NCBI RefSeq assembly: GCF_001544015.1
Contig: NZ_AP014924.1
Span: 372,001 to 436,000 of the forward strand
Length of the DNA stretch: 64,000 nt
Direction of reading: 5' to 3'
Source: Limnochorda pilosa
GTDB lineage: Bacteria > Bacillota > Limnochordia > Limnochordales > Limnochordaceae
Positions 1,376-20,531 of the stretch are shown one piece after another. The notes under the pieces are model-generated. The model was not told the DNA's origin. It searched no databases and saw nothing but the letters and a program-made list of their open reading frames with translations. Both the position numbers and the translations under genes were made by a program. Positions within the stretch are counted from its first letter, which is position 1. The number at the start of each line of letters is the position of its first letter.

Positions 1376-1474
1376 GGAGGTGGATGAGTCCCGGTGGGCT
1401 CCCCGGTCCTCAAAACCGGTGGCGCGCCGCTGCGAGCGGGGCGCGGTGGGTTCGACTCCCACGCACTTCCGCCA
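1376..1474 (+). tRNA. selC: tRNA-Sec (anticodon UCA)
   Basis: This is a 99-base tRNA with the features of bacterial selenocysteine tRNA. The acceptor stem is long (GGAGGTG against CACTTCC, with one G-U pair and a mismatch at the eighth position). The D stem has 6 base pairs (GAGTCC/GGGCTC). The anticodon stem CCGGT/ACCGG encloses loop CCTCAAA with anticodon TCA at 1410-1412. There is a long GC-rich variable arm, a T arm GTGGG-TTCGACT-CCCAC, discriminator G and an encoded CCA. It lies 23 bases upstream of selB and supports reading UGA as selenocysteine in the genes downstream. Confidence 0.95.
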
Positions 1475-1497: not shown

Positions 1498-3462
1498 ATG
1501 CAGACTCTGTGCACGGCGGGACACATCGATCATGGAAAGTCCGCCCTCGTGAGGGCGTTGACCGGGATCGATCCCGATCGCCTTCGAGAAGAGAAGGAAC
1601 GGGGCCTGACCATCGATCTCGGATTCGCCTGGCTTACGCTGCCAAGCGGGCGGACGGTGAACGTGATCGACGTCCCTGGACATGAGGATCTCATCAGAAA
1701 CATGCTGGCCGGGGTCAGTGCGGTTGACGCGGTGCTTCTCGTCGTGGCCGCGGACGACGGCGTCATGCCCCAAACGCGGGAGCACCTGGCCATCATGGGC
1801 CTGGCGGGTGTCTCAAGCGGCGTCGTGGCCCTGAACAAGATCGACGTGATGGACGATCAGGAGTGGATCGACCTTGTGGAGGCGGACGTGAAGGAGGCTT
1901 TAGCCGGTACGCACTTGGCGTCCGCCGAGGTGGTACCGGTGTCGGCCCGCTCGGGCAAGGGTCTGGAGCGCCTTCGCGCGACCCTTGACGAGACGCTCGC
2001 CAGGGTGAAGGCGCGCGAGGACCTGGCACACCCGCGGCTTCCCATCGATCGAGTCTTCAGTATCTCCGGGTTCGGGACGGTGGTGACGGGTACCCTAGTC
2101 GATGGGAGCATTTATCTGGGCCAGGAGCTGATGGTCTTCCCCGACAAGGGTACGGTCCGAGTAAGAGGGCTCCAGGTTCACGGGAATCCGGTCGATCGCG
2201 CGGAGCCGGGCACACGCGTTGCAGTGAACCTGCACGGAGGTACGAGCACCTTGCACCGCGGCACGGTCCTGGCCGAAGCCGACGCGCTCGAACCCGCGTA
2301 CGTGGTGCACGCCCGGGTTCGAATGCTCGGTGACCTGTCCCATGCTCTGCGTCACAATGAGGTGGTCGAGTGCTACTGGGGAACGGCGCGCACCATGGCC
2401 CGTGCCAGGCTTATTGAGGGGGATGAGCTGGAGCCGGGGAAGGAGGGGTGGGTTGAGTTCCGCTTCGCTCAACCGGTGAGCATGCTCCGGAACGACCGGT
2501 TCATCATTCGCCACCCTTCCTTAGGTGTGACCCTGGGCGGGGGGCGAGTGGCCGATCCGCGAGCTGCTCGACACTCGGGCCGGCGCAAGCGAGTTCTCGC
2601 TTCAGTTGAGCGGCTGAACGACGGGGGGCCACGTTCCGTCGTGAAGGCGGTTTTGTCAGACCTCGAACCCTGCCCGGCCGCTACCGTCATCCGAGAGAGC
2701 GCGCTTCCTCGTAAGGTAGCCGACCTTGCGTTGCAGCAGCTTCTCGACTCGGGAGAGGTGCTTTCTCTCGCGACGATCGGGGGGAAACAGCAGGAGCCGC
2801 AACCCGCGGCGTTGCTCGTGAGCCCGACAGGTTGGGCCCGCATTACGGAGCGGCTGCGCGATGCTCTACACGCATACCATCTCGAAAAGCCGTTGCGGCG
2901 GGGCATGCCGCGAGAGCAGTTGCGCCACCGTATGCGGATGGACCCTCCGACGTTCAACGCCGTGCTCGGCGCGGCGGCGCGCGAGGGTCTGGCGGTGTCG
3001 CTCGGGCCGGTAGTCTCCCTGACCGAGCACGATGTGCGCTTCACGCCAGAGCAGGAGCAACGCATTGATGGGTTGAAGCGCAGGCTCCGAGAAACCCGCA
3101 ATGCACCGCCCTCGCGCGCCGAGATGGAGGCCGCGGTCGGCCCGGACGTTTTCGAGGCCTTGGTCGAGCAAAGGTTCCTGATCAAGGTGGCCGACGATCT
3201 GTACTATCCGAGCGACGTCTACGATCGGATTGTGAACGAGCTCGTTCAGTTCATCCGCGAGAACGGACGCATATCCGTGGCGCAAGTGCGCGACCTCTTC
3301 GGGATCAGCCGAAAGTACGTCATCCCGCTCCTGCAGCACTGCGACGACCTACACCTGACGCGGCGGATCGGCGATGACCGCGTGCTCTTCGGATGTGCGC
3401 CGGAGCCTGGTGAGCGTGCTCCTGGAAGAGAAGGCATGCATCAGGAGGTGATCACGCCCTGA
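1498..3462 (+). CDS. selB: selenocysteine-specific translation elongation factor SelB
   Basis: SelB is a GTPase that delivers Sec-tRNA to the ribosome at UGA codons marked by a SECIS hairpin. The 654-residue product has the full translation-factor G domain: GHIDHGKS (8-15), switch region GLTIDLGFAWL (about 36-46), DVPGH (58-62) and NKID (113-116). EF-Tu-like beta-barrel domains follow. The C-terminal third is the set of winged-helix domains that bind SECIS RNA, ending near a FGISRKYVIPLL segment. The length is normal for the family. The ATG at 1498 follows AAGGA at 1481-1485. Its place between tRNA-Sec and three UGA-containing genes fits exactly. selA and selD are not in the window and must lie elsewhere. 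Confidence 0.97.
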   Translation: MQTLCTAGHIDHGKSALVRALTGIDPDRLREEKERGLTIDLGFAWLTLPSGRTVNVIDVPGHEDLIRNMLAGVSAVDAVLLVVAADDGVMPQTREHLAIMGLAGVSSGVVALNKIDVMDDQEWIDLVEADVKEALAGTHLASAEVVPVSARSGKGLERLRATLDETLARVKAREDLAHPRLPIDRVFSISGFGTVVTGTLVDGSIYLGQELMVFPDKGTVRVRGLQVHGNPVDRAEPGTRVAVNLHGGTSTLHRGTVLAEADALEPAYVVHARVRMLGDLSHALRHNEVVECYWGTARTMARARLIEGDELEPGKEGWVEFRFAQPVSMLRNDRFIIRHPSLGVTLGGGRVADPRAARHSGRRKRVLASVERLNDGGPRSVVKAVLSDLEPCPAATVIRESALPRKVADLALQQLLDSGEVLSLATIGGKQQEPQPAALLVSPTGWARITERLRDALHAYHLEKPLRRGMPREQLRHRMRMDPPTFNAVLGAAAREGLAVSLGPVVSLTEHDVRFTPEQEQRIDGLKRRLRETRNAPPSRAEMEAAVGPDVFEALVEQRFLIKVADDLYYPSDVYDRIVNELVQFIRENGRISVAQVRDLFGISRKYVIPLLQHCDDLHLTRRIGDDRVLFGCAPEPGERAPGREGMHQEVITP

Positions 3463-3520
3463 GTGGACCGGGATCCCAGAACGCAGAGTGACCCAAGTCA
3501 GACAGATGAGGAGGAAGACC

Positions 3521-5254
3521 GTGCGACACACACTTGCATGGCGGATGGTCATCGTGTGGGTGGCGCTGGCTGTGACTACGGTGCCGGTCGCTTTCGCGGC
3601 GGGCGGCGCGGACGTGCAGACGTGGCAACTCGTCAGTCCTGAAGGTGTCGTCGTGGTGGAACCGGTCGAGGCAAATCCGCATCCGACCACCTTGGAAGGC
3701 AGGACGATCGCCCTGTTCTGGAACGGGAAGCACAATGGCGACCTGTTCCTCACCCGAGTAGGCGAGCTTCTGATGGAGCAGGTGGAAGGCGTCGAGATCA
3801 TCAGGATCTGGGAGAATCACCCAGAGACGGCGGGCATCTCGGGATCTGTGGACAAGAGTAAGGCGAAGGCGGCGATCGTGGCCGGCTACAAGCCCGACCT
3901 CGTCATCGCCTCACAGTGCGATTGAGGGTCCTGCACGTCGTGGCTTGTCCACGACCAGGTCGAAATCGAGAAGCTGGGCATCCCGACCGTTACCATCAGC
4001 ACGACAGAGTTCGACGGGCTGGCGCTTAATTCCGCCCGCAGTTTCGGCGTAACCGACATGGCACGCGTCGTTGTGCCGCACCCCATGGGAATGATCAAGC
4101 CGGACGAGATCAGGGCCAAGGCGGATGCCGCATTCGCAGAGATCCTGAATGTGGCCACCGGGTGGCAGCCGAGCGCGGCGCAAGTGGCCGCCGCGGCACC
4201 GCCCTATCCGGCGCCCGTGATCAGGTTCACCGGCACCGATGAAGACGTCAACGAGCTCTTCTTCCGCAATGGCTGGTCTGTGGGCCTGCCCATCATCCCG
4301 CCGACGCCCGAGCGGGTGCAGGCCATGCTGAAGGGCACCAGTCACCGCCCCGACGAGGTCATCGGCATGATGACGCCCCGTATGGGTGCCGTCACGGTGG
4401 AACTGGTGGCAGTACACGCGGTGATGGCGGGCTGCAAGCCGGACCAGATGCCCGTGCTGCTCGCCGCCGTCGAGGCGCTGGTCGACCCAAGCTATCGAGG
4501 GCCTACCACAACGACCAACCCGACCGCGCCGCTGGTCGTCGTCAACGGTCCGATTGTGGACGAGGTAGGCATTGCGTATGGGCAGGGGGCGGCTGGGCCA
4601 TCCCAGCAGGCCAACGTCTGCCTCGGCCATGCGATCAACCTCATCGGCGACGTCATCGGCGGTTCAAGGCCGCCTGAGCCCGACAAGACGACCCTGGGCT
4701 GGCCTGGCAATACGGTGGCCATGGTGATCGCCGAGAACGAACAGGCTAATCCCTGGGGCCCTCTGCACGTGGAGCGGGGCTTCAACCCGGGCGATAGCAT
4801 CGTCACTGTGATGACCGGGGCTGAGATTCCGGCCAACATCAATGACCACAACAGTATCACCGGAGAGGACTTGCTGCGAGTCATTGCGCACAGTATGGAC
4901 CGGGCTGGGCAAAACACCCGCTGCTTCTCCGACTCCGATGTACTCGTGATTCTGAGCCCCGAGCACGCAGCGACCATCTTCAGCGACGGCTGGAAGAGCA
5001 AGGACGAGATGCGGCGGTTCTTGTGGGAGAACTCGAAGGTGCCCTTCGAAGCCATGCCAGGGGCAGGGGCCATTTGCAAACCCCCGCGCTGGTTTGGCAG
5101 CCCCGGGCCAGGTGACATGATCCCCATCGTCTCAAGTCCGGAGCGCATCCAGCTCATCGTGAGCGGCGGTGCCGGCAAGCACAGTGTCTACGTCTCCTCC
5201 TTCGGCGCCCAGACGCCGCGGCTGATCAGCGTGTCGGCGGACAAGTGGCGGTAA
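3521..5254 (+). CDS. secreted selenoprotein, UGSC family (first copy, UGA read as Sec135)
   Basis: The frame is open from 3521 to TAA at 5252-5254 except for one TGA at 3923-3925. Read as selenocysteine it gives a 577-residue protein with Sec at 135 in the motif U-G-S-C (135-138). GTG at 3521 is chosen because GAGGAGGAAG (3508-3517) precedes it. Residues 1-26 are a signal peptide. The N-terminal domain carries WNGKHNG (67-73) and ends IASQCD before Sec. The large C-terminal domain has GLPIIPPTPERV, then AVHAVMAGCKPDQMP, and ends GGAGKHSVYVSSFG. The UGSC family of (seleno)proteins is known but its reaction is not. U-x-x-C resembles thioredoxin-fold and glycine-reductase B redox motifs, so thiol/selenol redox chemistry outside the membrane is inferred. 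Confidence 0.88.
3923..3959 (+). promoter_or_regulatory. SECIS-like element of the first UGSC gene
   Basis: After the UGA (3923-3925) comes an 11-base gap and then a perfect 7-bp stem GTCGTGG (3937-3943) / CCACGAC (3949-3955) with loop CTTGT. An outer CCTG/CAGG stem (3930-3933 with 3956-3959) is separated by a three-base bulge. Forty bases (3919-3958) are identical to the matching region of the next selenoprotein gene, although the flanks diverge. Stem size and spacing match bacterial SECIS elements recognised by SelB. Confidence 0.75.
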
Positions 5255-5431: not shown

Positions 5432-7153
5432 ATGAAAGGGCAATGCTGGTGCATCGTGATCTGCTCGCTCGTAGTCGCCTTGGTCGGCGCCGTAAGTGCA
5501 GGCCCGATCGTCGCACAGGAGGCCCAGAAGTGGGAATTGGTCAACCCGGAGGGCGTTGCATGGGTTGAACCAGTGAAGATCGCGGAGCGAGTCGACTCGC
5601 TGGAAGGCAAGACCGTCGTGCTGTTCTGGAACGGGAAGCACAACGGCAACAACTTCCTCGACCGGCTGGCTGAACGGCTGGATGCCCAAGTGGAGGGGGT
5701 GCGTGTCCTCAAGTCGTGGGAGGAACCGCTCAACGTCCCACCCGGACAAAACGTCGCGGCCCAGATGATCGAAGCATGGCAGCGAGTAGGGATCAAACCG
5801 GATCTGGTGATCGCCTCCCAGGCCGATTGAGGGTCCTGCACGTCGTGGCTTGTCCACGACCAGATTGAGTTCGAAAAGCTGGGTGTACCGACTGTCACCG
5901 TTACCACGACGGAGTTTGAAGGATTGGCCCGGTCCACCGCGGCCAGCTTCGGTGCCGCGGACCTGTGCTTCGTCGTCCTACCTCATCCCATGGGCGGCAT
6001 CAAACGGGAGGCCATCCGCGCCCAGGCCGACAACGCCTTTGAAGCCGTCGTGCGAGCCGCGGTGGACTGGAGGCCGTCCGCTGCCCAGATGGCTTCACGA
6101 AGGGGAGCATACCCCTCAGAGCACTTCACCTTCCAAGGCAGCCTCGATGACGTGATCGCCCTCTACTCTGGCAACGGGTGGAGCGACGGGCTGCCCATCA
6201 TTCCGCCGACGCCGGACCGGGTGGCAGCCATGCTGAAGGGGACGCACCGATCCCCAGACACGGTGATCGGCACGGTTCCGCCTCGCATGGGCATGCTCAC
6301 CGTCGAGCTGGCCGCGGTCCACGCTGTGATGGCCGGTGCTCGCCCAGAGCATTTTCCGCTCATCCTGGCGGCGGCCGATGCATTGCTGGACCCACGACAC
6401 GACTTTCGTTCAGCAACCACCACCACCAACCCCTGCGCCATCTTCATTCTGGTCACCGGGCCAGCGGTGCAGGAGATCGGGGTTCAGTACGCTGAAGGCG
6501 CGCTGGCGCCGGGTCCGTTCAGTGGGCCGAACGCGACCGTCGGGCGCGCGATCAACCTCATCATGGACGTGGTGGGTGGATCGAAGCCGCCGTCGCCTGA
6601 CAAATCAACCCTCGGCTCGCCCGCCAGCTACACGATGGTATTGGGAGAGAACGTGGACGCGACCCCGTGGAAGACGGTCAACGAGCAACTGGGGTTCGAC
6701 CGTGATGCCAATTTGGTGACCGTCTTCGAGATGCGCAGCTTCGTCAACTTCAACCTGCATAACCCCAACACCGCGGAAGGGCTGCTCGATCCTATGGCGG
6801 CTACGATCGGTCCGGTGGCAGGTCTGGCTGAGAACGCGTTCGAATGCGGGCGCGGTCCTGCCAAGGTACTGGCATTGAGCCCAGAGCATGCGGCGACCAT
6901 CGCTGGGGAGGGGTGGACCGAAGCGGATGTGAAGGCCTACCTGCACGAGCATGCAAGCATCTCGATGGAGCGGTACCTCGTGCGTAACAACGGTGTGGAA
7001 CCCGACTGTCGGCAGGATGAGGCCGAACCGTCAGTCTTGGCGGAGCCTGGCAACGTCCTAGTGGTCGTGGCGGGCGGTCCGGGCAAGCACTCGGTCTATC
7101 TGGAGACCACCCGGTACGCGCCCGTCTCCAAGTCCCTGGAGGCGTGGAGATAG
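5432..7153 (+). CDS. secreted selenoprotein, UGSC family (second copy, UGA read as Sec133)
   Basis: This is a tandem paralogue of the preceding gene. The frame is open from ATG 5432 to TAG 7151-7153 apart from TGA at 5828-5830. Read through, it is 573 residues with Sec133 in U-G-S-C. A signal peptide covers about residues 1-28. The N-terminal domain again has FWNGKHNG (65-72) and the phrase KPDLVIASQAD before Sec. The C-terminal domain repeats GLPIIPPTPDRV, HAVMAGARPEHFP and a terminal GGPGKHSVYLET. In the first copy the residue two before Sec is Cys; here it is Ala, so that Cys is not essential. The start is the first ATG before the signal peptide; its ribosome site is weak. A redox role at the cell surface is inferred. 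Confidence 0.88.
5828..5863 (+). promoter_or_regulatory. SECIS-like element of the second UGSC gene
   Basis: UGA at 5828-5830 is followed by the stem GTCGTGG (5842-5848) / CCACGAC (5854-5860) with loop CTTGT. The spacing is identical to the first copy, and 40 bases match without change. The outer stem is one pair shorter because the last G is A here. Confidence 0.75.
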
Positions 7154-7180: not shown

Positions 7181-7271
7181 CGTCCCGGCAGTTGCAGGCT
7201 GCTCGAAACACGCCGCTTGTGCGATGGGGGCTTGAGGGTTGAGCAGTGAAGCGAGGGCAACCGCCGGGACG
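7181..7271 (+). other. structured RNA candidate between the UGSC genes
   Basis: A long-range stem pairs CGTCCCGGC (7181-7189) with GCCGGGACG (7263-7271), then after one A-C mismatch GTTGC (7191-7195) with GCAAC (7257-7261). Inside it CTGCTC (7199-7204) pairs with GAGCAG (7241-7246), leaving a 36-base purine-rich apical region. No protein is recognised in the segment. It could be a riboswitch-like leader for the downstream gene, a processing site or a decayed repeat. I do not recognise a known class. Confidence 0.35.
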
Positions 7272-7282
7272 AGAGGAGGGAT

Positions 7283-7306
7283 GGCGGGGGGTGATCGCCC
7301 CCCGCC
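7283..7306 (+). other. GC stem-loop before the short UGSC paralogue
   Basis: A perfect 9-bp stem GGCGGGGGG (7283-7291) / CCCCCCGCC (7298-7306) has a 6-base loop. It lies 50 bases upstream of the chosen start of the next gene and immediately after the larger structured segment. Confidence 0.5.
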
Positions 7307-7355
7307 GATATTCGTGCCGAGCTGCAACAGTCGGATCCGGAGGATGAGCCGCCTG

Positions 7356-8687
7356 ATGACGCGGACAAGGATCGCACTCGCAGCGTGCATGGCCGCGGCT
7401 CTCCTTGAAGCCGCGGTGGTCTCGGGCTCTAGCGGCACTGACGTCGCAGGGGAACGCTCCGTCGGACAGGAGTCGCACGAGGTGTGGATCTACAATCCTG
7501 CCGGTATCCGTCCGGACGGTCAGTACGTGGATGAACTGCTCTCGGCCACGATGCGGGAGATGGGGCTGTCGAAGCCGCCAATGGCAGGGCAGTTTCCCAA
7601 GGCACGCGTCGAGCGAATGACCGTGGAGTCGGACGTCCTGGACGAGGTCAACCGACTGTTCTACGAGCGTGGCTGGTCGGATGGTCTACCCATCGTGCCC
7701 CCCACGGCGCAACGCGTCGCCGAGATGCTCAGAGGGGCCGATCTTTCCCCAGATGTCGTCGTGGCTACCCTTCCTCCGATGGGGGGGCAGGCGACCATCG
7801 AGAAGATCGCGGTCAACGCGGTCATGGCCGGCTGCCGGCCCGTCGACATGCCCCTCCTCATCGCAGCCACCGAAGCCCTTGCCGATCCCGCTTTCGACCT
7901 CCGAGGCCTGGCTACCACAACCAGCCCCGACACGCCCATGGTCATCGTGAGCGGGCCCATCGTGTCGCAGCTCGGGCTCAACGCCGGCACCAACGCATTG
8001 GGAAGAGGATGGCGGGGGAACGCGGTCGTAGGTCGAGCGCTGCACTTGATCGTTCAAAACATAGGTGGAAGCTGGCCGGGCGTCACCGATCTGTCGTGCT
8101 TGGGCTATCCTGGGGATTTCACGATGGTCTTGGCCGAGAACGCCGAGGCGAGCCCCTGGGCCCCCTTCCACACAGATCTGGGGTTCAGCAAGCGCGCCAA
8201 CGTGGTCAGCGTCGTCGGCGCTGAAGGGACCCACAACATCCTGGGGATCGGTCAGGGCACCCGCGGCTTCATGAAGCTGGTGGCCGCCCACCTTGCTGGC
8301 ATGGATCGCCCCATCCGCTCGGTGGTCGTACTGATCGTCGCCCAGGACACCGCCCAACAGCTCGCCGAAGAGGGATGGACCCCCAAGAGCATGCGGGCGT
8401 TCATCCAGGACAACGCTGCGATTCCGTTTTACGTCTACAAGGAGCGTTTCATAGACACAGGGATGGCACGGCGGGTGCCGGATTGGGTTCACCAGACCCA
8501 ATCGCCCGACGAGCTGATTCCGACTCCCCTCATTGAGCAAATGCTGATCCTGGTTTCAGGAGGGCCGGGTGAGAAGAGCATGGTCGTTCCAGGATGGCCG
8601 GCTGGTTCGATGGTGAGCCGGGAGATACGACTGCCCTGGAATTGGGACGAGCTGGTCGAAGCCTATGTGCCAGACTACGATCGATAG
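7356..8687 (+). CDS. exported UGSC-family paralogue lacking the selenocysteine domain
   Basis: The 443-residue product aligns with the C-terminal part of the flanking selenoproteins: GLPIVPPTAQRV, AVNAVMAGCRPVDMP, ATTTSPDTPMVIVSGPIV and a terminal LVSGGPGEKSMVV. The N-terminal domain and U-x-x-C motif are missing. A WIYNPAGI phrase just after the signal peptide recalls the start of the mature selenoproteins. ATG 7356 begins a good signal sequence (about residues 1-22) and lies 12 bases after GGAGG (7339-7343); ATG 7344 is possible but lies directly against it. A naturally shortened partner or subunit is more likely than a pseudogene, because the frame is intact over its whole length. Confidence 0.75.
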   Translation: MTRTRIALAACMAAALLEAAVVSGSSGTDVAGERSVGQESHEVWIYNPAGIRPDGQYVDELLSATMREMGLSKPPMAGQFPKARVERMTVESDVLDEVNRLFYERGWSDGLPIVPPTAQRVAEMLRGADLSPDVVVATLPPMGGQATIEKIAVNAVMAGCRPVDMPLLIAATEALADPAFDLRGLATTTSPDTPMVIVSGPIVSQLGLNAGTNALGRGWRGNAVVGRALHLIVQNIGGSWPGVTDLSCLGYPGDFTMVLAENAEASPWAPFHTDLGFSKRANVVSVVGAEGTHNILGIGQGTRGFMKLVAAHLAGMDRPIRSVVVLIVAQDTAQQLAEEGWTPKSMRAFIQDNAAIPFYVYKERFIDTGMARRVPDWVHQTQSPDELIPTPLIEQMLILVSGGPGEKSMVVPGWPAGSMVSREIRLPWNWDELVEAYVPDYDR

Positions 8688-8868: not shown

Positions 8869-9339
8869 ATGCAAGGATTCGCAGTGCGGCGGCAGATGTT
8901 GAGCCGTCTGGGCGTCGCATCCTTCGTGCTGTTGCTGGGAGGCCTCCTCCTGGCGCGGGGGGCATCGGCGCAAGCTTTTCAGATGATCTCGGCCCAAGAT
9001 CTGAGGTCGCTGATCGATGGGCCCGAGGCTCCGGTCGTGTTGGACGTACGGCTGGCCGACGAGGTTTCGGTACTGGGCAAGATCCCGGAGGCGACGGTCG
9101 TCTCCCTGAACGACCTCATGCTTCAAGTGTCCTCCGTTGTGCCCGACCAGGGCGCAACTGTCGTCATCTACGCGGCAAGCGACGCCACGGCGAAGATGGC
9201 CGCGTTGGCCCTCACCCAACTCCTCGGTTACACCGACGTACGGTTTCTCGAGGGAGGCTTCGACGCCTGGGACCTATCGGGATACCCCGTGGAACCGTGG
9301 GAGGGTCCTCAGGCGGCACCCATTCCCGGAGGCTGCTAA
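8869..9339 (+). CDS. secreted rhodanese-like protein without the catalytic cysteine
   Basis: The roughly 156-residue product has a signal peptide followed by one rhodanese fold: QDLRSLIDGPEAPVVLDVR, then IPEATVVSLNDL, VVIYAASDATAKMAALAL and FLEGGFDAWDLSGYPV. In active rhodaneses the loop after VVIY starts with Cys; here it reads Ala-Ala-Ser, so persulfide transfer by the usual residue is not possible. The only cysteine in the mature part is the final residue. ATG 8869 is used; 8860 and 8896 are alternatives with no decisive ribosome site. It sits between two UGSC-family genes, so a binding or scaffolding role in the same extracytoplasmic system is inferred. Confidence 0.7.
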   Translation: MQGFAVRRQMLSRLGVASFVLLLGGLLLARGASAQAFQMISAQDLRSLIDGPEAPVVLDVRLADEVSVLGKIPEATVVSLNDLMLQVSSVVPDQGATVVIYAASDATAKMAALALTQLLGYTDVRFLEGGFDAWDLSGYPVEPWEGPQAAPIPGGC

Positions 9340-9457: not shown

Positions 9458-11269
9458 ATGGATATGTGGGTAAGAAGGAGGTTCGCCCAAGTGCACGGTG
9501 CGCGTGGTTGGCGGAGATGGAGCATGCTCTTGGCCGTCGTCATGTCGTGGTCGTTGGCTGCGGCCATCAGCCCTACGGCCTCAGCTGCCGTTCAGTTCTC
9601 GGTGTTGAATCCATCGGCCGAAATCGAAATCACCCATCCGATCGCTGCCCGACCGGGAGACCTCAACGGCAAGAGGATCGGCCTCTGGGCTTCGTCCGCC
9701 GATCCAATCTACGGGTACGGTGCCGCGTTCCTCGAGAGCCTCGGCGAAGCTCTTCAGGAGCGGTACCCAGACATTGCGTTGATCCCGCCGGCGGAGTTCC
9801 CAACGGACTACCACATGCAGGACGAACTCTTCGCAGCGATCGAGGCCCACGGCGTGGAGGCCGTCATCGGCGGGGTGGGCGGCTGAGGCGGGTGCAATCG
9901 GGCGATGGGTCTCATCGCCGTCGAGCTCGAAAAGGCGGGTATCCCGACCACGTTCGTGCTGTTCGAGGACCAGGAAGCGACCTTTCTTGCTCAGGCAGGC
10001 TTGAACGGCCAAGGTGTGCTGCCCGCCGTGACCGTGCCGGCAGCTGAACTGACGGAAGAAGCGCGCGCTCGGCAAGCCGGACGTGAAGTCGTGGATGACG
10101 TAGTGAACGGGCTTACCCGAGGCATCCCACCCTATCTGGAACGCAACGAGAATAGGCTGATTCCGTCTCCTTCGGTCTTGACGTTTAGGGGCGAAGACTA
10201 CGGCGGGGCCTATCAGGCCTTCATGGAGACGTTCACCGAGAGGCGTTGGGGGGACGGCCTGCCTTTGATCCCACCGACACCGGAGCGGGTGGAATGGGTC
10301 CTCGAGGGGACCGATCGCACGCCGGGCACCGTCCTTGGCGCCATGGGGCCCAGCATGGGAGAGGTCACGGTGCGTCAGCTGGCCATCAACGCGGCCATGG
10401 CAGGAGCTCGACCCGAGCACCTGCCGGTCATCATCGCGGCCATGGAGGCCATCACCGCCTACCCTTACGACTACCATGCGCCTCTGGCTCGCGGTGTGGC
10501 GCCACTGGTGATCGTGAACGGGCCGATCGTGGATCAACTGGGGATCAACCACGCACAGAACGAGCTGGGGCCCCACCCGGGCTATCCGGCCGGGGCCGTG
10601 ATCGGTCGGGCCATCAACCTTGCCATGCGCAATCTCGGCGGGTTTGGCCGAGGGTACGTTCCACCCGCCCAGCACGGGCAACCAGGAACGTACACGGGCC
10701 TCGTCATCGGTGAGGCAGAGGACGTGGTGCCCTGGACACCCCTCAACGTGGAACTGGGCTTTGAGCGGGGAACGAATACGGTGACGGTCCTCGGTGTGTC
10801 TGGAACCGTCGGCGTTCCTGGACCCAACCCGGAGCACGCGGCGGCCTTCGTGCCCCCGAGTATCCCATTCTGGCCGTCAACGCGGTTCGCGTGGCAACGT
10901 TCCACCGTCGGCGTCCTCCTGGTCACGCCTTTGCAGGCGCGGCGTTTCTTCGGCCAAGGGCGGTCCAAGCAGGACATCAAGGAGGTTCTGTACACCTACG
11001 CCCGGACCCCTCGTGACGAATTCGAGCGGACGTGGCAACTCGATGAGTTCGAACCGACCGGATTCATTGGGTGGCTCCTCCGGACCACTCCCGAAGACGA
11101 GCCCATTCCGATCGCTGCTGGCCCCGACAGCTTCCTCGTGGTCACAGCCGGCGGGTGGGACAGCTCGGTCGCGTTCTCGTGGCTGTTCACAGACCTCTAT
11201 ATGAACGTTCCAACAACCAAGGTGGTGCACCTTCCACAGGACTGGGAGGACCTCTTGAGCGAGCGGTAG
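9458..11269 (+). CDS. secreted selenoprotein, UGGC variant of the UGSC family (UGA read as Sec143)
   Basis: One TGA (9884-9886) interrupts an otherwise open frame from ATG 9458 to TAG 11267-11269. Read through, it is 603 residues with Sec143 in U-G-G-C, followed by NRAMGLIAVELEKAGIPT. The flanking U-x-x-C then alpha-helix then AGIPT layout resembles the selenoprotein B family of glycine/betaine reductases. A signal peptide covers about residues 1-43. The C-terminal part matches the other paralogues (GLPLIPPTPERVEWVL, AINAAMAGARPEHLP, a final VVTAGGWDSSV). The N-terminal domain is divergent and lacks WNGKHNG. The reaction is unknown; exported selenol redox chemistry is inferred. Confidence 0.85.
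9884..9919 (+). promoter_or_regulatory. SECIS-like element with GGUCU loop
   Basis: UGA (9884-9886) is followed after 14 bases by a perfect 7-bp stem GGCGATG (9901-9907) / CATCGCC (9913-9919). The loop GGTCT matches the apical loop of the well-studied E. coli formate dehydrogenase SECIS, where the G and U contact SelB. It differs in sequence from the two upstream elements. Confidence 0.8.
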
Positions 11270-11290: not shown

Positions 11291-12778
11291 GTGACGGGAC
11301 GGTATCGTGAGCCACGACGACACAGCAGCACCGTGCTGATGTTGATCGTCCTTCTGGGAGCGAGCCAGGCAGTTCGGGCATCGGCGTCCAGTGCTGACCC
11401 GGTTCCCTCGCACGCACGGGGGGCCCTGGAGAGTTGCGAGATGTGCCACTTCAGCCGCCAGCGCCTTATCCAGACGGCGGACTCGCCTGAGGAGGCGGAG
11501 GCGGTCTGGGTGGATCAGAGGGCCTTTCTCATGGCGAGGCATCCCTTTCAATGTGTCGTCTGTCACGGAGGGGTGTCGCCGGCAAGCGGGAAGGAGATGG
11601 CCCACGAAGGGCTCATTGAGGACCCGGGAGCACCGGAGGTGCTGGGCCAGTCGTGCGGGCAGGAGAAGTGCCATCCAGAGATAGCCGAAACCTACCCCAC
11701 TTCCCTTCACGCTACCGTTCAGGGTCTCAAGAACGGGGCTTATGAGGTGTTGCCCCCCGAGGAGGCGGAGCGGGTTGTCTCCGGCCGGTGCAATACGTGC
11801 CACGCAGGGTGTTCGGATTGCCACCTCGCTGAGGGCGACGGGAACCTGCGCGTGGCCAGCCACGACTTCAGCGCGACGAACGGCTCGGACGTCTGCATCC
11901 GCTGCCATCAGGAAACGGGAACGGGCTTCGAAGGGGCCGAGGGCTTCTTCGGCCCCAGCGTCCACGCCTCGGCTGGGCTGGAGTGCACCGATTGCCACCG
12001 GGGGTCGGAGGTACACGGCACGGGGGAGGCTCTGAGCAACCTCCGTCAGGCCATCGCGATCTCGTGCACGGACTGCCATCGGCAACCAGGTACCGTGGTA
12101 CGCGGTCTCGAAGTACCCCAGTACCAGACCGGCGGTGAGAACGTCTCCCACGCTCTCCACGAAGAGAGCCTGGACTGCACCGCGTGTCACATCGAGTGGA
12201 ACTACAACTGCTACGGCTGCCATGGCTACGACGAGGCGGCCCAACCCAAGGGCTACCAGAGCTTCGATACCGAGGTGCACCTCGCGGTGGACCCGGCGAA
12301 GGACAAGGTGGCAACGGTGGTCCACGCCCCCATGAGTCGCACCGTCGGCGGCCGGGAGTACGCATACGGCGCGTGGGCGTTCAAGAACCGCCATGCACTC
12401 CAAGTGGCCCCTCGTTCGTGCGAGGAGTGCCATGCTGACGGTTCCATCTTCATCGACAGCCGGTGGCGGCGAGCCCCCTTCGTGGGGACCTTCTCAGGCG
12501 CTGAATTCGTCGCGGACGAGACCGTCGACGCGATCCGAGTCTCCCGAGAGGCGGCGCTGGCTCTGGCGGCCTGGTTCATGCCGGAGCGAGACCAGGCGAC
12601 AGCCCAAGCTGCCCAGGTCAGTCTGGATGGGGTGGAGGAAGGGGATCACGTGGCCGTCCGGTGGGCCCTGTGGTTCTATCGGGTACTGATTCCCCTGGTC
12701 ATCGGAGGCTTCATCCTGCTCATCGTCCTGGACGTGCGAAGGCGCTCGCTGCACCGGCGGGAGGGGAGGGCTTCCTGA
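11291..12778 (+). CDS. membrane-anchored multiheme cytochrome c
   Basis: The 495-residue product has an N-terminal signal sequence, ten CxxCH heme motifs and one CGQEKCH motif (Cx4CH). This suggests up to eleven c-type hemes on the outer side of the membrane. A transmembrane helix near residues 460-480 (WFYRVLIPLVIGGFILLIVL) followed by basic residues anchors it. GTG 11291 follows AGGGAAGGGG. The stop overlaps the start of the cytochrome b gene by one base, so the two are probably made together and pass electrons between the quinol pool and exported partners. Similarity to NapC/NrfH-type or tetrathionate/DMSO chains is only general. Confidence 0.88.
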   Translation: MTGRYREPRRHSSTVLMLIVLLGASQAVRASASSADPVPSHARGALESCEMCHFSRQRLIQTADSPEEAEAVWVDQRAFLMARHPFQCVVCHGGVSPASGKEMAHEGLIEDPGAPEVLGQSCGQEKCHPEIAETYPTSLHATVQGLKNGAYEVLPPEEAERVVSGRCNTCHAGCSDCHLAEGDGNLRVASHDFSATNGSDVCIRCHQETGTGFEGAEGFFGPSVHASAGLECTDCHRGSEVHGTGEALSNLRQAIAISCTDCHRQPGTVVRGLEVPQYQTGGENVSHALHEESLDCTACHIEWNYNCYGCHGYDEAAQPKGYQSFDTEVHLAVDPAKDKVATVVHAPMSRTVGGREYAYGAWAFKNRHALQVAPRSCEECHADGSIFIDSRWRRAPFVGTFSGAEFVADETVDAIRVSREAALALAAWFMPERDQATAQAAQVSLDGVEEGDHVAVRWALWFYRVLIPLVIGGFILLIVLDVRRRSLHRREGRAS

Positions 12779-13806
12779 TGGATCAGAGGCAGAGGCATGC
12801 AGCTGGGTCCAACGAGATCAAGGGGGGGCACGGCGCACCTCCCGACCGCCACCTGCGGTTCGACGTCCCGACGCGCATCCAGCACTGGGTGATGGTGAGC
12901 GCATTCGTCGTCCTGTCCGTGACCGGCTTGCCGCAGATGTTCTCCGGCTCCGGGACCGGTGGGGCCCTGTTGGGGTGGCTGGGCGGGCAAAGCAGTGTCC
13001 GGGCGATTCACCGCGGGGCCGCCGTCGTCTTCATGGCGGTGTTCGTGTGTCATGTCCTGGAACGGGTCTACCGAGTGCTGGTGCAGGGACGGCCCTTCCG
13101 CATCCTGCCGGGGCCGCAAGACGTACGTGACCTCATCGACGAGATCCGCTACGATCTGGGCCTGCGGGCGGAGCGCCCCCGTTATGGGCGGTTCAGTTAC
13201 GCTGAGAAGGTGGAGTACTGGTCCCTCATCTGGGGTGCGGTGATCATGGGGGCGAGCGGCCTGCTTCTCTGGAACGGGGCGGCCACCGCCGTACTGACGC
13301 AGCCAGTTGTCGTTGCGGTGGCCCGAGTCGTGCACGGCTGGGAGGCGGTGCTGGCCGTCCTGGCCATCGTCATCTGGCACGTCTACCATGTCCACGTGCG
13401 ACACGTAAACCGGAGCATGTTCACAGGCTACCTGACCCGGGAGGAGATGCTCGAGGAGCACCCGCGCGAGCTTGAGGAGGCAGGCGAGACTCCTCCGGTG
13501 GTCATGGGGTGGCGGCGGTCTGTTCGCCTGGCAGGGGCCCTGCTCTCGACGGGGCTCGTGGTCTGCTTCGTGGTGGCGGCGGGCTGGTGGATGAGTCTGG
13601 ATCCATCAGGGTTGGTGCCTCCCGAGGAGGCGCGGGGGACGGTCCTGGCAGCAACGCCCAGGGCGTGGGGGCCGTCCGTACCCCACGACGTAAGCACCCG
13701 TCCCGGCTGCGGGGGCTGCCACGGAACCAGGGCAGCCTGGCCGGGACCCGGCTTCACAGCCCAGCTACCGGCCGAGACGTGCCTCTCCTGCCACGCCCAG
13801 CAGTAG
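12778..13806 (+). CDS. cytochrome b561-type membrane subunit with a C-terminal diheme c tail
   Basis: The 342-residue product resembles the cytochrome b subunit of formate dehydrogenase and thiosulfate reductase. It has HWVMVSAFVVLSVTG, then IHRGAAVVFMAVFVCHV, then HGWEAVLAVLAIVIWHVYHVHV, giving several conserved His in four helices. An extra helix near residues 250-270 leads to a short exported tail with two heme motifs, CGGCH and CLSCH. The ATG at 12778 overlaps the upstream stop. It is likely the quinol-oxidising partner of the multiheme protein. The fused diheme tail is not usual for this family and would give a direct electron exit. Confidence 0.85.
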   Translation: MDQRQRHAAGSNEIKGGHGAPPDRHLRFDVPTRIQHWVMVSAFVVLSVTGLPQMFSGSGTGGALLGWLGGQSSVRAIHRGAAVVFMAVFVCHVLERVYRVLVQGRPFRILPGPQDVRDLIDEIRYDLGLRAERPRYGRFSYAEKVEYWSLIWGAVIMGASGLLLWNGAATAVLTQPVVVAVARVVHGWEAVLAVLAIVIWHVYHVHVRHVNRSMFTGYLTREEMLEEHPRELEEAGETPPVVMGWRRSVRLAGALLSTGLVVCFVVAAGWWMSLDPSGLVPPEEARGTVLAATPRAWGPSVPHDVSTRPGCGGCHGTRAAWPGPGFTAQLPAETCLSCHAQQ

Positions 13807-13897
13807 GCGGGCGACAGTGAGCGAACCGAGACGATCCGGGACCGAGGGCTCGCAGGACCCTCTCGGGCCTGGGCCTGATCCTGGAGGTGGAACACCT

Positions 13898-15043
13898 GTG
13901 AAGAAGTACCTGACGGAAATGCTCACCTGGCCTGTCCTGACGGGTCTCGTCGTCGGCGTTCTGGCTCCCGTTCTCGTGAAGCTGGGGAATCCCCACAACA
14001 TGGGCGTCTGCGTGGCCTGCTTCACCCGGGACATCGCCGGGGCCCTGGGGTTCCACCGGACCGGGAGCGTCCAGTACCTCCGCCCGGAGATCATGGGGAT
14101 CGTCCTGGGTTCCTTGGCGGCTGGCCTGGTGTTTCGCGAGTTCCGCCCTCGAACCGGTTCCGCCCCCTTGGTCCGGTTCGTCTTGGGGTTCTTCGCCATG
14201 ATCGGTGCCTTGGTCTTCCTGGGCTGCCCGTGGCGGGCCTACCTCCGGCTGAGCGGCGGCGACTGGAACGCGCTCTATGGGATACTGGGGCTGGCGGCGG
14301 GGATCGGCGCCGGGGTGGGTTTCCTCAAGTCCGGGTTCAGCCTTGGGCGAAGCAGGCCGGCTGCACCCGCCCTCGGTTGGATGATGCCAGCAATCATGGT
14401 GGGTCTGCTGCTCTTGGCGGTCCTCGCGCCGCAGTCAGGCCTCGCTGCGGACGGAAGCCCCACAGGTCCCGTCTTCTTCTCTACCCAGGGCCCGGGGAGC
14501 CAGCATGCACCCTGGCTGAGCTCCCTGGGAGTGGGGCTCCTCCTTGGCTTCCTGGCCCAGCGCAGCAGATTCTGCACCGTGGGTGCGCTGCGTGACGTGA
14601 TGCTCTTCAGGGAGACGCATCTCTTAGGGGGAATCGTCGCGCTGATGGCCGCTGCCTTCGTGACGAACGTAGTCCTGGGCGAATTCCATGCCGGTTTTGA
14701 GAACCAGCCGGTGGCTCATTCGAACGTGCTCTGGAACGTCGGGGGCATGGTGCTGGCCGGTCTCGCCTTCACCCTGGCAGGTGGCTGTCCGGGCCGGCAA
14801 CTGATTCTGTCGGGCGAAGGGGACGGGGACGCGGCACTCTTCGTCCTCGGGATGCTTGCGGGGGCCGGAGCGGCGCACAACTTCAACATGGCCAGTTCCC
14901 CGGCCGGTCCCGGTGCGTACGGGCCCGCAGCGACCCTGGTGGGCTTGGTGATCTGCACGGTGCTCGGATTCACGATGCGCGAGGTGCCTGAGCAGAGGGC
15001 CAGCGCTACAGGATGGGGTGCGGCGAGCCAGGTCAGCAAGTAG
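13898..15043 (+). CDS. yedE: selenium metabolism membrane protein YedE/FdhT
   Basis: The 381-residue polytopic membrane protein matches the YeeE/YedE family in its selenium-linked form. NPHNMGVCVACFTRDIAGALG (30-50, Cys38 and Cys41), GCPWRAYLRLSGGD, RSRFCTVGALRDV and GGCPGRQLILSGEGDGDAA are hallmark segments. YedE is proposed to take up a selenium or sulfur species for selenoprotein synthesis. GTG 13898 is chosen because GGAGGTGG lies 8 bases upstream; an earlier GTG at 13817 would add a non-conserved extension. It is the first of four consecutive genes for selenium or sulfur handling. Confidence 0.92.
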   Translation: MKKYLTEMLTWPVLTGLVVGVLAPVLVKLGNPHNMGVCVACFTRDIAGALGFHRTGSVQYLRPEIMGIVLGSLAAGLVFREFRPRTGSAPLVRFVLGFFAMIGALVFLGCPWRAYLRLSGGDWNALYGILGLAAGIGAGVGFLKSGFSLGRSRPAAPALGWMMPAIMVGLLLLAVLAPQSGLAADGSPTGPVFFSTQGPGSQHAPWLSSLGVGLLLGFLAQRSRFCTVGALRDVMLFRETHLLGGIVALMAAAFVTNVVLGEFHAGFENQPVAHSNVLWNVGGMVLAGLAFTLAGGCPGRQLILSGEGDGDAALFVLGMLAGAGAAHNFNMASSPAGPGAYGPAATLVGLVICTVLGFTMREVPEQRASATGWGAASQVSK

Positions 15044-15077: not shown

Positions 15078-15296
15078 GTGGATGATGCGGTGTTGGACGC
15101 CCGGGGGCTCTCCTGCCCGGAACCGGCCCTTCGAACCGTTGAGCTGCTGGAGCGGTCACACGGCGGGACGGTGATCGTCCTGGTAGACTCGGTCAACTCC
15201 CGGGACAACGTGGCCCGTACCGCGGCCTTGCACGGCTGGCAGTCCACGGTGGTCGAGTTGGCGGGCGGAGACTATCAGGTGGTCCTTCGCAAGTGA
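15078..15296 (+). CDS. TusA/YedF-like sulfurtransferase-family protein
   Basis: This 72-residue protein has the TusA/SirA fold with the signature LDARGLSCPEPALRT (7-21), including the conserved Cys-Pro. It corresponds to the N-terminal half of YedF, the partner of YedE in selenium metabolism; the second YedF domain is absent. GTG 15078 follows AAGGAGG (15064-15070). Its stop overlaps the start of the desulfurase gene (GTGA), so translation is coupled. It probably carries sulfur or selenium on the cysteine. Confidence 0.88.
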   Translation: MDDAVLDARGLSCPEPALRTVELLERSHGGTVIVLVDSVNSRDNVARTAALHGWQSTVVELAGGDYQVVLRK

Positions 15297-16447
15297 TCTA
15301 CATGGACCATGCAGCGACCTCGTGGCCCAAGCCCCCTGAGGTCCTCAAGGCGATGATACAGTACCTGGAAGAGTCTGGCGGCAATCCGGGGCGCTCAGGG
15401 CATCGTCTCTCGGTCGCCGCGGGCCGGATCATCTACGAGACTCGGGAAGCAGTGGCCGAGTTGCTGGGCGTGCGTGATCCCCTGCGGGTCATCTTCACGC
15501 TCAATGCGACGCACGCGATCAACCTGGTCCTGAGAGCCACGCTCCGTCCAGGAGATCGTGTGGTCGTTACGGGTATGGAGCACAATGCGGTGATGAGGCC
15601 CCTGCGGGCCATGGCGGTCAAGCACGGGATTCAGGTCGTGGTAGCGCCGGCCCAATCCGACGGGAGCACCGATGTGGCACAGGTGGGACCACTGCTGCAG
15701 CCGAAAGCCCGCCTTCTGGTGGCTGCTCATGCGAGCAACGTCACTGGGACTCTCGCGCCGATGGAAGAGCTCTCCCGCCTCGCGCACGCCGCGGGGGCGT
15801 TGGTCTTGGCGGACGCTGCGCAGACCGTGGGTGCGGTTCCCATCGGAATAGGGCACATGGGGGCGGACTTCCTCGTCTTCAGTGGCCACAAGGGCCTTCT
15901 GGGACCACCTGGCACGGGCGGGGTCGCCCTGGGCGACGGGGTGGATGCCACAGCCCTCGAGCCGCTGATCCTTGGTGGAACGGGGAGCCGCTCCGAATCT
16001 GAGGAGCCGCCCGCCCACCTCCCGGACCGGTTCGAGGTCGGGACGCCCAACGGTGTCGGACTGGCCGGGTTGGGGGCCGGGGTACGCTGGGTGCAGAGCC
16101 ACGGGGTGGAGGAGCTTCGCGCGCGGGAGATGAGCCTGCGCAGACAACTCGTCGAAGGGCTCAAGACGTTGCGCGGGGTCGTCGTTCACGGACCGCGCAA
16201 TCCCGCAGATGCCACGGCGGTGGTTTCGTTCACCGTGCTGGGTCGCTCGGTGTCCGAGATCGGATCACAGCTTGACGAACGTTTCGGGATCCTGTGCAGG
16301 GTGGGTCTCCACTGCGCGCCGCGCGCCCACCGAAGCATTGGAACCTATCCAGAGGGTACAGTCCGACTTTCGCCGGGCCCGTTCATCGAACCTGCGGACA
16401 TTGACGCGGTGCTCTCTGCGCTGAGACAGGTGGTGGCACGTTCATGA
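15293..16447 (+). CDS. cysteine desulfurase / selenocysteine lyase family PLP enzyme
   Basis: This class V aminotransferase-fold enzyme has 384 residues. It begins YMDHAATSWPKP, binds PLP through Lys200 in SGHKG, and carries the catalytic-type Cys341 in GLHCAP followed by AHRSIG. The pattern fits the cysteine desulfurase family close to SufS/CsdB. Such enzymes release sulfur from cysteine or selenium from selenocysteine. The overlap with the TusA-like gene upstream and the DUF3343 gene downstream points to a selenium or persulfide delivery unit for the selenoproteins and perhaps for the molybdoenzymes. Substrate choice cannot be read from sequence. Confidence 0.9.
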   Translation: MIYMDHAATSWPKPPEVLKAMIQYLEESGGNPGRSGHRLSVAAGRIIYETREAVAELLGVRDPLRVIFTLNATHAINLVLRATLRPGDRVVVTGMEHNAVMRPLRAMAVKHGIQVVVAPAQSDGSTDVAQVGPLLQPKARLLVAAHASNVTGTLAPMEELSRLAHAAGALVLADAAQTVGAVPIGIGHMGADFLVFSGHKGLLGPPGTGGVALGDGVDATALEPLILGGTGSRSESEEPPAHLPDRFEVGTPNGVGLAGLGAGVRWVQSHGVEELRAREMSLRRQLVEGLKTLRGVVVHGPRNPADATAVVSFTVLGRSVSEIGSQLDERFGILCRVGLHCAPRAHRSIGTYPEGTVRLSPGPFIEPADIDAVLSALRQVVARS

Positions 16448-17927: not shown

Positions 17928-20531
17928 ATGCAGGGTTCGCAGACCAACATGCTCGACCCCAGGCTGAACCGACGGTCACTCCTGAAGTGGACTGCGGCCG
18001 CGGCCGGCGGGCTTGCCATCGGCGGCCGGGGCTTCGGCTTGGTACAGGCCGACCCGGCCCGCGTTGCCGCCCAGGGCGGCACCAGGACCGAGGGCGGCAG
18101 GTGGGTGGCGGTTGCTTGCTGGCACAACTGCGGGGGCCGGTGCCTCAACAAGGCGCTGGTGGTGGACGGCGTCGTGGTGCGGCAGAAGACGGACGACACC
18201 CACCCCGACACCCCCGACTTCCCGCAGCAGCGGGGCTGCGCCCGCGGCCGCTCCCAGCGCCAACAGGTGTTGGGCGCAGACCGCCTGAAGTACCCGATGA
18301 AGCGGAAGCACTGGGAGCCCGGCGGCGGCAACAAGGAGCTGCGGGGCAAGGACGAGTGGGTCCGAATCTCCTGGGAAGAAGCATTGGACATCGTCGCCAG
18401 TGAGATCAAGCGGGTCAAGGAGCAGTATGGCAACAAGTCGATCATCATGCCCCGTAGGGGCAGCAAGCTGATCAACGCCCTGGGCGGCGGTCTGGAGAGC
18501 TGGGGCGTTACGTCCGACGGGGCCTGGCCCGCGGTGACCGCACACATGGTCGGCTCCCAACCGGTCAACGACCGTTTGGACTGGCGGAATGCCAAGCTGC
18601 TGGTCCTCTGGGGTGCGAACCCCGCCTGGTCCAGCGCCGGCAACCCGGCCTACAACCTGCTGCAGGTCAAGAAGGCAGGCGCCAAGATCATCTGCGTCGA
18701 CCCGATGTACTCGGCCACGGCCCAGGCCCTGGCCGACGAGTGGATCCCGGTCCGGCCGGGCACCGATGCGGCCCTCCTGATCGGCATGGCCTACCACATG
18801 ATCACCAACAACCTGCAGGACCAGGCCTTCCTGGACAAGTACACCGTCGGCTTCGACCGGGACCACATGCCGGAGGGCGCCGATCCGAAGGAGAACTTCA
18901 AGGACTACGTACTGGGTACCTATGACGGCGTCCCCAAGACGCCGGAGTGGGCCTCTGAGATCTGTGGCATCGACCCCCGGACCATCCGTTTCTTCGCCCA
19001 GGAGCTCGCCACCACCAAGCCGGCGATCATGTCCTCCTCGTCGGCGCCAGCCCGGACGTCGCTGGGTCAGCAGTTCTGCCAGGCCTTCCTGACCGTCGGC
19101 TGGATGACCGGGAATGTGGGCATCTCCGGCGGGGGCGTCTGGCAGTCCTACCATACCAACGCGAGCTACTCCAGCCAGAGCCTGGTCCGCTCCGGGGGCA
19201 CCGGTGCAGGCAACATCCCGAACCCGCTCTTCCCTTACGGCACCTACGGTTTCTCCAGCCCGGAGAAGAGCGACTGGTACGGCATGGCGCACGAGGAGAT
19301 GTACAGCGCCATCATCAACGGTGAGTACACCCGGGGTGTGAACGGCAAGGAGAAATGCGACATCCGGCTGCTCTACTGCATCCGAGACAGCAACGGCGGC
19401 AACTTCCTCAATCAAGAAGCGGGTATCAACGAGGGCATCGAGGCGATGCGGAAGCTGGACTTCATCGTCACCAGCGACATCGTCCTCTCCACCGTCTCCA
19501 AGTACGCCGATGTGGTCCTGCCCGAGTGCACCTGGTGGGAGAAGGCGGGCACCACGCTGTCCGGCAACCCCGAGGCGATCTTCGTCTTCGGAAAGGTGAT
19601 CGAACCTCTCTATGAGGCTCGGGACGGGATGTGGATCGAGCGCGAACTGGCCAAGCGTCTGGGCCTCGATCCAGATGAGGTTCACCCGCTCTCCCGGGAG
19701 CAGCAGTTCTTCAATCAAATCGCCGGCGCGAGGGTGATGAAGCCCGACGGCTCGGGCTGGGAGCCGCTGGTCACCATCACCGAGCAGGATATCACCGCGC
19801 TCGGCGTGGAAGGCAAGCCCCAGCAGGGCCGCGTCTCCTTGCAGGAGTTCAGGGAGCGCGGGGTCTACCAGGTCGAGCGGAAGCCTGGCGATGCGTTCTC
19901 CGGGTTCATCGCCCACAAAGCTTTCCGGGACGATCCCGAGAAGAACCCCCTGCCGACCCGCAGCGGCAAGCTGGAGATCCACTGCCAGGCGCTCTCCGAG
20001 AAGATCGCCGCCTATGGGTTCACCACGTGCCCGCCCATCGCCATGTACCGGCCGCCCGTGGACGGGTACGAGGCGACTTTCAAGGACTTCGAGCACAAGG
20101 TCAAGGGCGACTACCCGCTGCAGCTCTTCACCCCGCACTACCCGCGTCGTTCCCATTCGGTCTTCGACAACATCAGGCAGCTGCGGGAGGCCTTCCCGCA
20201 GGAGTGCTGGATGAACCCCGTGGATGCCGAGCCCCGTGGCATCGTCACCGGTGACACGATCAAGATCACCTCGAAGTGCGGGACCGTCATCCGGCCGGTG
20301 GAGGTCACGGAGCGGGTGGTGCCCGGCACCGTGGCGCTCGGTGAGGGCGCCTGGGTCGAAAGGGATGATGAGACCGGCATCGACAAGGCCGGCGCCACCA
20401 ACTCTCTCACCAGGAGCCTTCTTACCGGCCAGGGCGAAGAACCGTGGAACACAGTGAACTGCCAGGTGGAAAAGTGGACCGGCGAGCCTCTGGCTCCTGA
20501 CGTCACCTGGCCGCAGCGGATTGTCTTCTGA
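17928..20531 (+). CDS. dmsA: DMSO-reductase-family molybdoenzyme, catalytic subunit (operon 1)
   Basis: The 867-residue protein starts with a twin-arginine signal (NRRSLLKW at 14-21). It has a Cys64-x3-Cys68-x3-Cys72-x31-Cys104 iron-sulfur site. Segments DEWVRISWEEALDIVASEI, DEWIPVRPGTDAALL and FTPHYPRRSHS match DmsA and its relatives. Ser196 in WGVTSDGA aligns with the serine that ligates molybdenum in DmsA. Length is normal for the family. ATG 17928 follows GGAGGT. The substrate (DMSO, another S- or N-oxide, or a selenium or other oxyanion) cannot be decided. It is exported by Tat and works with dmsB and dmsC. Confidence 0.92.
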   Translation: MQGSQTNMLDPRLNRRSLLKWTAAAAGGLAIGGRGFGLVQADPARVAAQGGTRTEGGRWVAVACWHNCGGRCLNKALVVDGVVVRQKTDDTHPDTPDFPQQRGCARGRSQRQQVLGADRLKYPMKRKHWEPGGGNKELRGKDEWVRISWEEALDIVASEIKRVKEQYGNKSIIMPRRGSKLINALGGGLESWGVTSDGAWPAVTAHMVGSQPVNDRLDWRNAKLLVLWGANPAWSSAGNPAYNLLQVKKAGAKIICVDPMYSATAQALADEWIPVRPGTDAALLIGMAYHMITNNLQDQAFLDKYTVGFDRDHMPEGADPKENFKDYVLGTYDGVPKTPEWASEICGIDPRTIRFFAQELATTKPAIMSSSSAPARTSLGQQFCQAFLTVGWMTGNVGISGGGVWQSYHTNASYSSQSLVRSGGTGAGNIPNPLFPYGTYGFSSPEKSDWYGMAHEEMYSAIINGEYTRGVNGKEKCDIRLLYCIRDSNGGNFLNQEAGINEGIEAMRKLDFIVTSDIVLSTVSKYADVVLPECTWWEKAGTTLSGNPEAIFVFGKVIEPLYEARDGMWIERELAKRLGLDPDEVHPLSREQQFFNQIAGARVMKPDGSGWEPLVTITEQDITALGVEGKPQQGRVSLQEFRERGVYQVERKPGDAFSGFIAHKAFRDDPEKNPLPTRSGKLEIHCQALSEKIAAYGFTTCPPIAMYRPPVDGYEATFKDFEHKVKGDYPLQLFTPHYPRRSHSVFDNIRQLREAFPQECWMNPVDAEPRGIVTGDTIKITSKCGTVIRPVEVTERVVPGTVALGEGAWVERDDETGIDKAGATNSLTRSLLTGQGEEPWNTVNCQVEKWTGEPLAPDVTWPQRIVF

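Follow-up and report, generated by a model that had tools for sequence, protein, structure and literature searches.

A UGSC-family gene in a tandem array of Limnochorda pilosa with an in-frame UGA that is very probably read as selenocysteine

Introduction

The 64,000-nucleotide stretch of the Limnochorda pilosa genome analyzed here (the window) carries neighboring genes of one family, each crossed by an in-frame UGA, and two of these genes are identical over 40 bases around that codon. The locus therefore raises the question of whether the UGA at 5828, in the second gene (copy 2), ends a protein or encodes selenocysteine (Sec), and of what the 40-base identity says about the history of the two copies. 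UGSC has been a recognized selenoprotein family since at least 2008, when its fusion with a domain named Unknown_1 was already described (PMC2398784).

Results

Reading frame and family of copy 2

The frame of copy 2 runs from the ATG at 5432 to the TAG at 7151-7153 and comprises 573 codons that are open across one UGA; standard table 11 translation ends the frame at 5830. The first-pass annotation had placed the gene at 5828-7153. Its end was correct, but its start was the UGA itself, and the gene begins at 5432 (Table 1). The peptide around codon 133 is DUGSCTSW, in keeping with the UGSC (or CGSC) motif that marks the family. A predicted signal peptide is followed by a GrdB/PrdB-like Sec domain (approximately residues 36-209) and an Unknown_1-type domain (approximately residues 226-573), and the hydrophobic N-terminal stretch, judged by eye, suggests that the protein is exported. 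Copy 1 is arranged in the same manner, as had been noted previously, with an in-frame UGA and then a hairpin.

Table 1. Features of the UGSC array, its surroundings, and the Sec-decoding genes. Plain numbers are window positions; numbers with the prefix G000:C1 are positions in the L. pilosa genome.
Feature	Position	Strand	Evidence or remark
tRNA-Sec, anticodon UCA	1376-1474	+	ARAGORN; Rfam RF01852, 69.3 bits
SelB, Sec elongation factor	1498-3462	+	TIGR00475, 337.7 bits (cut-off 242.25)
UGSC selenoprotein copy 1	3503-5254	+	UGA 3923; hairpin 3937-3955; start codon uncertain
UGSC selenoprotein copy 2	5432-7153	+	573 aa, Sec133; frame, family models, AlphaFold, profile comparison
40-base identity with 3919-3958	5824-5863	+	SECIS region and peptide
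UGA for Sec133 (motif UGSC)	5828-5830	+	codon 133, in frame; most homologues likewise
SECIS hairpin GUCGUGG-CUUGU-CCACGAC	5842-5860	+	stem from base 15 (U of UGA = 1); comparative evidence
Companion protein, Unknown_1 C-terminal domain without UGSC domain	7239-8687	+	Pfam scan
Rhodanese-like protein ending GGC	8878-9339	+	profile scans; immediately precedes copy 3; L118 has this order too
UGSC selenoprotein copy 3	9458-11269	+	Sec143; UGA 9884; motif UGGC; hairpin 9901-9919
Multihaem cytochrome c	11291-12778	+	Pfam scan
Cytochrome b561-type membrane protein	12781-13806	+	Pfam scan
YedE-family putative selenium transporter	13817-15043	+	TIGR04112, 484 bits (cut-off 200)
Cysteine desulfurase family protein	15293-16447	+	TIGR01977, 413.7 bits (cut-off 377)
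UGSC selenoprotein copy 4	G000:C1:371061-371588; L005:7949-9694	-	just left of the window, other strand
tRNA-Sec pair	G000:C1:373376-373470 and 3500497-3500588		genome search
SelB pair	G000:C1:373498-375459 and 3690047-3691975		genome search
SelD pair	G000:C1:368797-369723 and 3420759-3421685		each match with an in-frame TGA
SelA, single	G000:C1:3692069-3693409		genome search

Copy 2 scored 137.7 bits against the Pfam model PF24696 (cut-off 25) and 126 bits against the curated model NF041046, a margin of one bit over the cut-off of 125. At the homologous site outside its own genome, approximately 111 of 123 sequences had UGA, 8 had Cys, 3 had Met, and 1 had Gln; these counts were drawn from 79 public loci and from same-phylum loci that partly overlap, and are thus approximate. 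The genome, a single contig, had TGA at the site in all four of its paralogues and encoded tRNA-Sec, SelA, SelB, and SelD. The tRNA-Sec and SelB genes were located 2-4 kb upstream of copy 2 on the same strand.

A hairpin that accompanies the UGA

No Rfam SECIS family matched at any threshold listed, single-sequence folding failed to single out the hairpin at 5842-5860 (z 0.00), and an equally good hairpin arose in 2-5% of random synonymous recodings. The support for the hairpin comes from comparing homologues. The mean best-hairpin score was 18.8 in 113 distinct UGA-bearing sequences, compared with 11.4 for synonymous recodings, of which the highest mean was 11.9; the eight Cys homologues had best-hairpin scores of 7-14.5. 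Pairing at fixed positions was found in 509 of 588 cases against a null mean of 339; the 84 sequences of that test had been preselected by hairpin position, and the 113-sequence test is the fairer one. Across homologues, the SECIS hairpin follows UGA and not Cys.

The usual description of a bacterial SECIS calls for a G in the first two loop positions. The copy 2 loop, CUUGU, has no G there, yet it recurs in other phyla: the exact hairpin and loop were found in genes of Rokubacteria, a deltaproteobacterium, and a betaproteobacterium MAG. In a second SECIS form, the loop begins 5-6 nt farther from the UGA; this form, mostly GGCUGGU-5 nt-ACCAGCU or ACCAGUC, was carried by copy 4 and by loci L031, L032-L035, L111, L113, and L124.

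The termination of the table 11 frame and the unremarkable single-sequence fold are what would be expected if UGA 5828 were a genuine stop, or a sequencing error for UGC or UGU, and if 5924-7153 were a separate or dead gene. We consider this reading hardly credible, because TGA stands at one site in all four paralogues of a single-contig genome, most homologues elsewhere have UGA at the site, the hairpin goes with UGA, and the tRNA-Sec and SelB genes adjoin. Family membership, the conserved UGA, the UGA-linked hairpin absent from Cys homologues, and the adjacent Sec machinery support the Sec133 reading that the first-pass annotation had proposed. On these comparisons, UGA 5828 is very probably decoded as Sec in an ordinary UGSC-family protein with an Unknown_1-type C domain, which is probably exported. 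SelB with Sec-tRNA-Sec would bind the hairpin 11 nt past the UGA codon and thereby insert Sec133.

The 40 bases common to copies 1 and 2

The 40-base run, which the annotation had correctly reported as spanning the UGA and hairpin of both copies, was the longest that they share, the next longest being 23 bases. The annotation had also called for a comparison of synonymous changes inside and outside 5824-5863, and the outcome exceeded chance: the conserved degenerate codons were identical in 12 of 12 cases inside the run and in 100 of 240 outside it (chance of 12 of 12, approximately 3e-5, assuming independent codons). Matches to the same 40 bases were found in Rokubacteria (L095, 37/40), a deltaproteobacterial locus (L065, 37/40), and a betaproteobacterial locus (L069, 36/40), all three with a hairpin and loop identical to those of copies 1 and 2.

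In a tree of 40 proteins, copy 2 paired with the Desulfovibrio gene of L031 (54% identity, support 100/99), and copy 1 was placed in a neighboring clade. A recent tandem duplication giving rise to copies 1 and 2 was rejected, in that the tree uniting them failed the AU test (p = 5.9e-6).

The two copies are thus not sisters and yet have all 40 bases in common, and the nearest relatives of each, as well as copy 4, bear the second SECIS form; both observations would fit gene conversion between the two over a short tract. Nevertheless, genes of other phyla whose protein identity is much lower have the hairpin and loop of copies 1 and 2 together with 36-37 of the 40 bases, so that selection on an old SECIS explains most of the likeness, and the identity stops at the edge of the conserved region. 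Because relatives hold the second SECIS form while distant genes share the first, gene conversion is conceivable but not needed, and we regard it as unlikely. The 40-base identity is instead, as far as sequence comparison can tell, an old SECIS and an active-site peptide of the family that selection has preserved, and no mark of recent duplication, because the stretch is nearly the same in distant genes with an identical hairpin and loop.

Other UGSC copies

The annotation had regarded two tandem selenoproteins of one family as rare, which the survey contradicted. UGSC pairs less than 4.5 kb apart on one strand were present in 14 of 95 loci, the window included, and both genes had UGA in 17 of 18 pairs; moreover, the window array contains a third UGSC copy. 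Copy 3 scored 66 bits against PF24696, above the cut-off, and 42.2 bits against NF041046, below the cut-off; its SECIS loop is GGUCU and lies one codon farther out. The nearest relatives of copy 3 are in two same-phylum genomes (L118 and L119), where the motif is UTAC. A residue other than Gly follows Sec in members from L118, L119, L114, L125, and L126 (UTAC, UDGC, UIGC), and the UGSC motif is therefore looser than its name. Copy 4 is divergent from the cluster, adjoins the second SelD gene, and bears the shifted SECIS form.

Gene cluster and doubled Sec-decoding genes

The companion protein that follows copy 2 is 57% identical to a relative encoded in L031, the Desulfovibrio locus with the nearest copy 2 homologue. 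At the left of the cluster, 379-1338 encodes a UshA-like protein, related to NF041198 below the cut-off, that ends in ...CGC followed by UGA; the name of that model (PCGU) hints at a Sec near the C terminus in the family, whereas the gene here apparently has Cys at that place and ends at the UGA. Downstream of the cluster, 17928-20531 and 23139-25733 encode DMSO/selenate-reductase-type molybdopterin proteins (TIGR02166, below the cut-off).

The genome-wide search revealed two tRNA-Sec genes above 69 bits (a third match was barely over the cut-off), two SelB genes, two SelD genes with DNA 86.5% identical, and one SelA gene. In the SelB tree, the cluster SelB grouped with those of the three Chloroflexota genomes that the tree contained (99/97), and the other SelB grouped with genomes of the same class. 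No UGSC members were found in 59 relatives of class rank or nearer. The Chloroflexota-grouping SelB, the doubled Sec genes, and the lack of UGSC members in these relatives suggest that the cluster may have been acquired from outside together with its own SelB and tRNA-Sec.

Two partly orthogonal Sec channels could exist, with the Chloroflexota-like SelB and tRNA-Sec of the cluster serving the SECIS of copies 1 and 2 and the other pair serving different forms, for example the one in copy 4. We consider this quite improbable; the fit between SECIS form and SelB clade is unclean, and one Rokubacteria genome (G356) combines the copy 1 and copy 2 type of SECIS with a SelB of another clade. With two SelB/tRNA-Sec pairs that seem to differ in origin and no fewer than two SECIS forms, this genome is a natural test of separate SelB-SECIS channels.

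Kinship of the UGSC domain with GrdB and PrdB

We compared the UGSC domain with GrdB and PrdB proteins taken from same-phylum genomes by using hhalign, each time against a single target. The results were 97.7% for GrdB and 97.0% for PrdB, with Sec aligned on Sec and Cys on Cys, and remained at 96.3% and 94.6%, respectively, when the motif was masked; the controls yielded 6.6% (reversed) and 0.4% (SelB). PF07355 was matched neither in the Pfam scans nor in the genome, and the PF07355 model used ends before the Sec site. Judged by these profiles, the UGSC domain is a distant homologue of the GrdB/PrdB Sec domain. A literature search that covered few subscription papers found no earlier link between UGSC and GrdB/PrdB.

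The AlphaFold model of copy 2 has two domains (pLDDT 87.2, pTM 0.88), and its N domain forms a Rossmann/flavodoxin-like sandwich in which Sec sits where a helix begins. Whole-model Foldseek/VIA matches went no further than common arrangements, namely generic Rossmann/flavodoxin-like folds, and the family profile, searched against the sequences of solved structures, returned nothing significant. UGSC proteins were proposed in 2008 to be thioredoxin-like thiol oxidoreductases (PMC2398784), an opinion with which the UxxC motif agrees. That assignment now appears improbable: the strand and helix order of the model (pLDDT 87) is Rossmann/flavodoxin-like, with matches to such folds, and the profile comparison, which covered GrdB, PrdB, and the controls, yields GrdB/PrdB.

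The C domain modeled alone (pLDDT 88.6) gave a best Foldseek E value of 1e-3 with a probability of 0.51; a chorismate-mutase-like substructure reached Z 6.1, Toblerone-fold hydrolases ranked lower, and there was no clear known fold. Its comparison with the GrdE profile (0.1%) revealed no resemblance, and the genome had no match to PF09338, the pyruvoyl-forming partner.

Discussion

Glycine reductase and proline reductase cleave bonds through Se-C intermediates (PMC10298544). Because the Sec domain of copy 2 is homologous to that of GrdB/PrdB, we infer that the UGSC protein would most likely act on an exported substrate by Sec-thiol reductive cleavage. The selenolate and the Cys three residues on would most likely perform a reductive cleavage or a selenenylsulfide-forming step on a small molecule, and, more speculatively, electrons might arrive from the cytochromes encoded in the cluster. 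The UGSC domain, whose function has been unassigned since 2008, thus gains a testable chemistry through its kinship with GrdB/PrdB.

Copy 2 is one more member of a known, abundant selenoprotein family and is ordinary of its kind. It shares with the family (NF041046/PF24696) the Sec domain, the UGSC motif, and the UGA with its SECIS; its Unknown_1-type C-terminal fusion is of a previously reported kind, it has a probable signal peptide, and nothing places it outside the family.

The Photobacterium profundum 3TCK genome has two complete Sec operons and two non-identical tRNA-Sec genes (PMC5330540). The L. pilosa genome similarly has two non-identical tRNA-Sec genes, along with paired SelB and SelD genes, but differs in having a single SelA and SelB proteins that belong to different clades of the tree.

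Protein B of glycine/sarcosine/betaine reductase (GrdB) and PrdB of D-proline reductase have a homologous Sec domain, and the UGxC motif, the next helix, and an E-x-GIP stretch align with those of copy 2. In contrast to GrdB/PrdB, copy 2 occurs in a genome without the PF09338 partner, has its Sec domain at the N terminus, is probably exported, and carries a C domain that is unrelated to GrdE by profile; given the missing partner match and this C domain, its chemistry may therefore differ from that of glycine and proline reductase.
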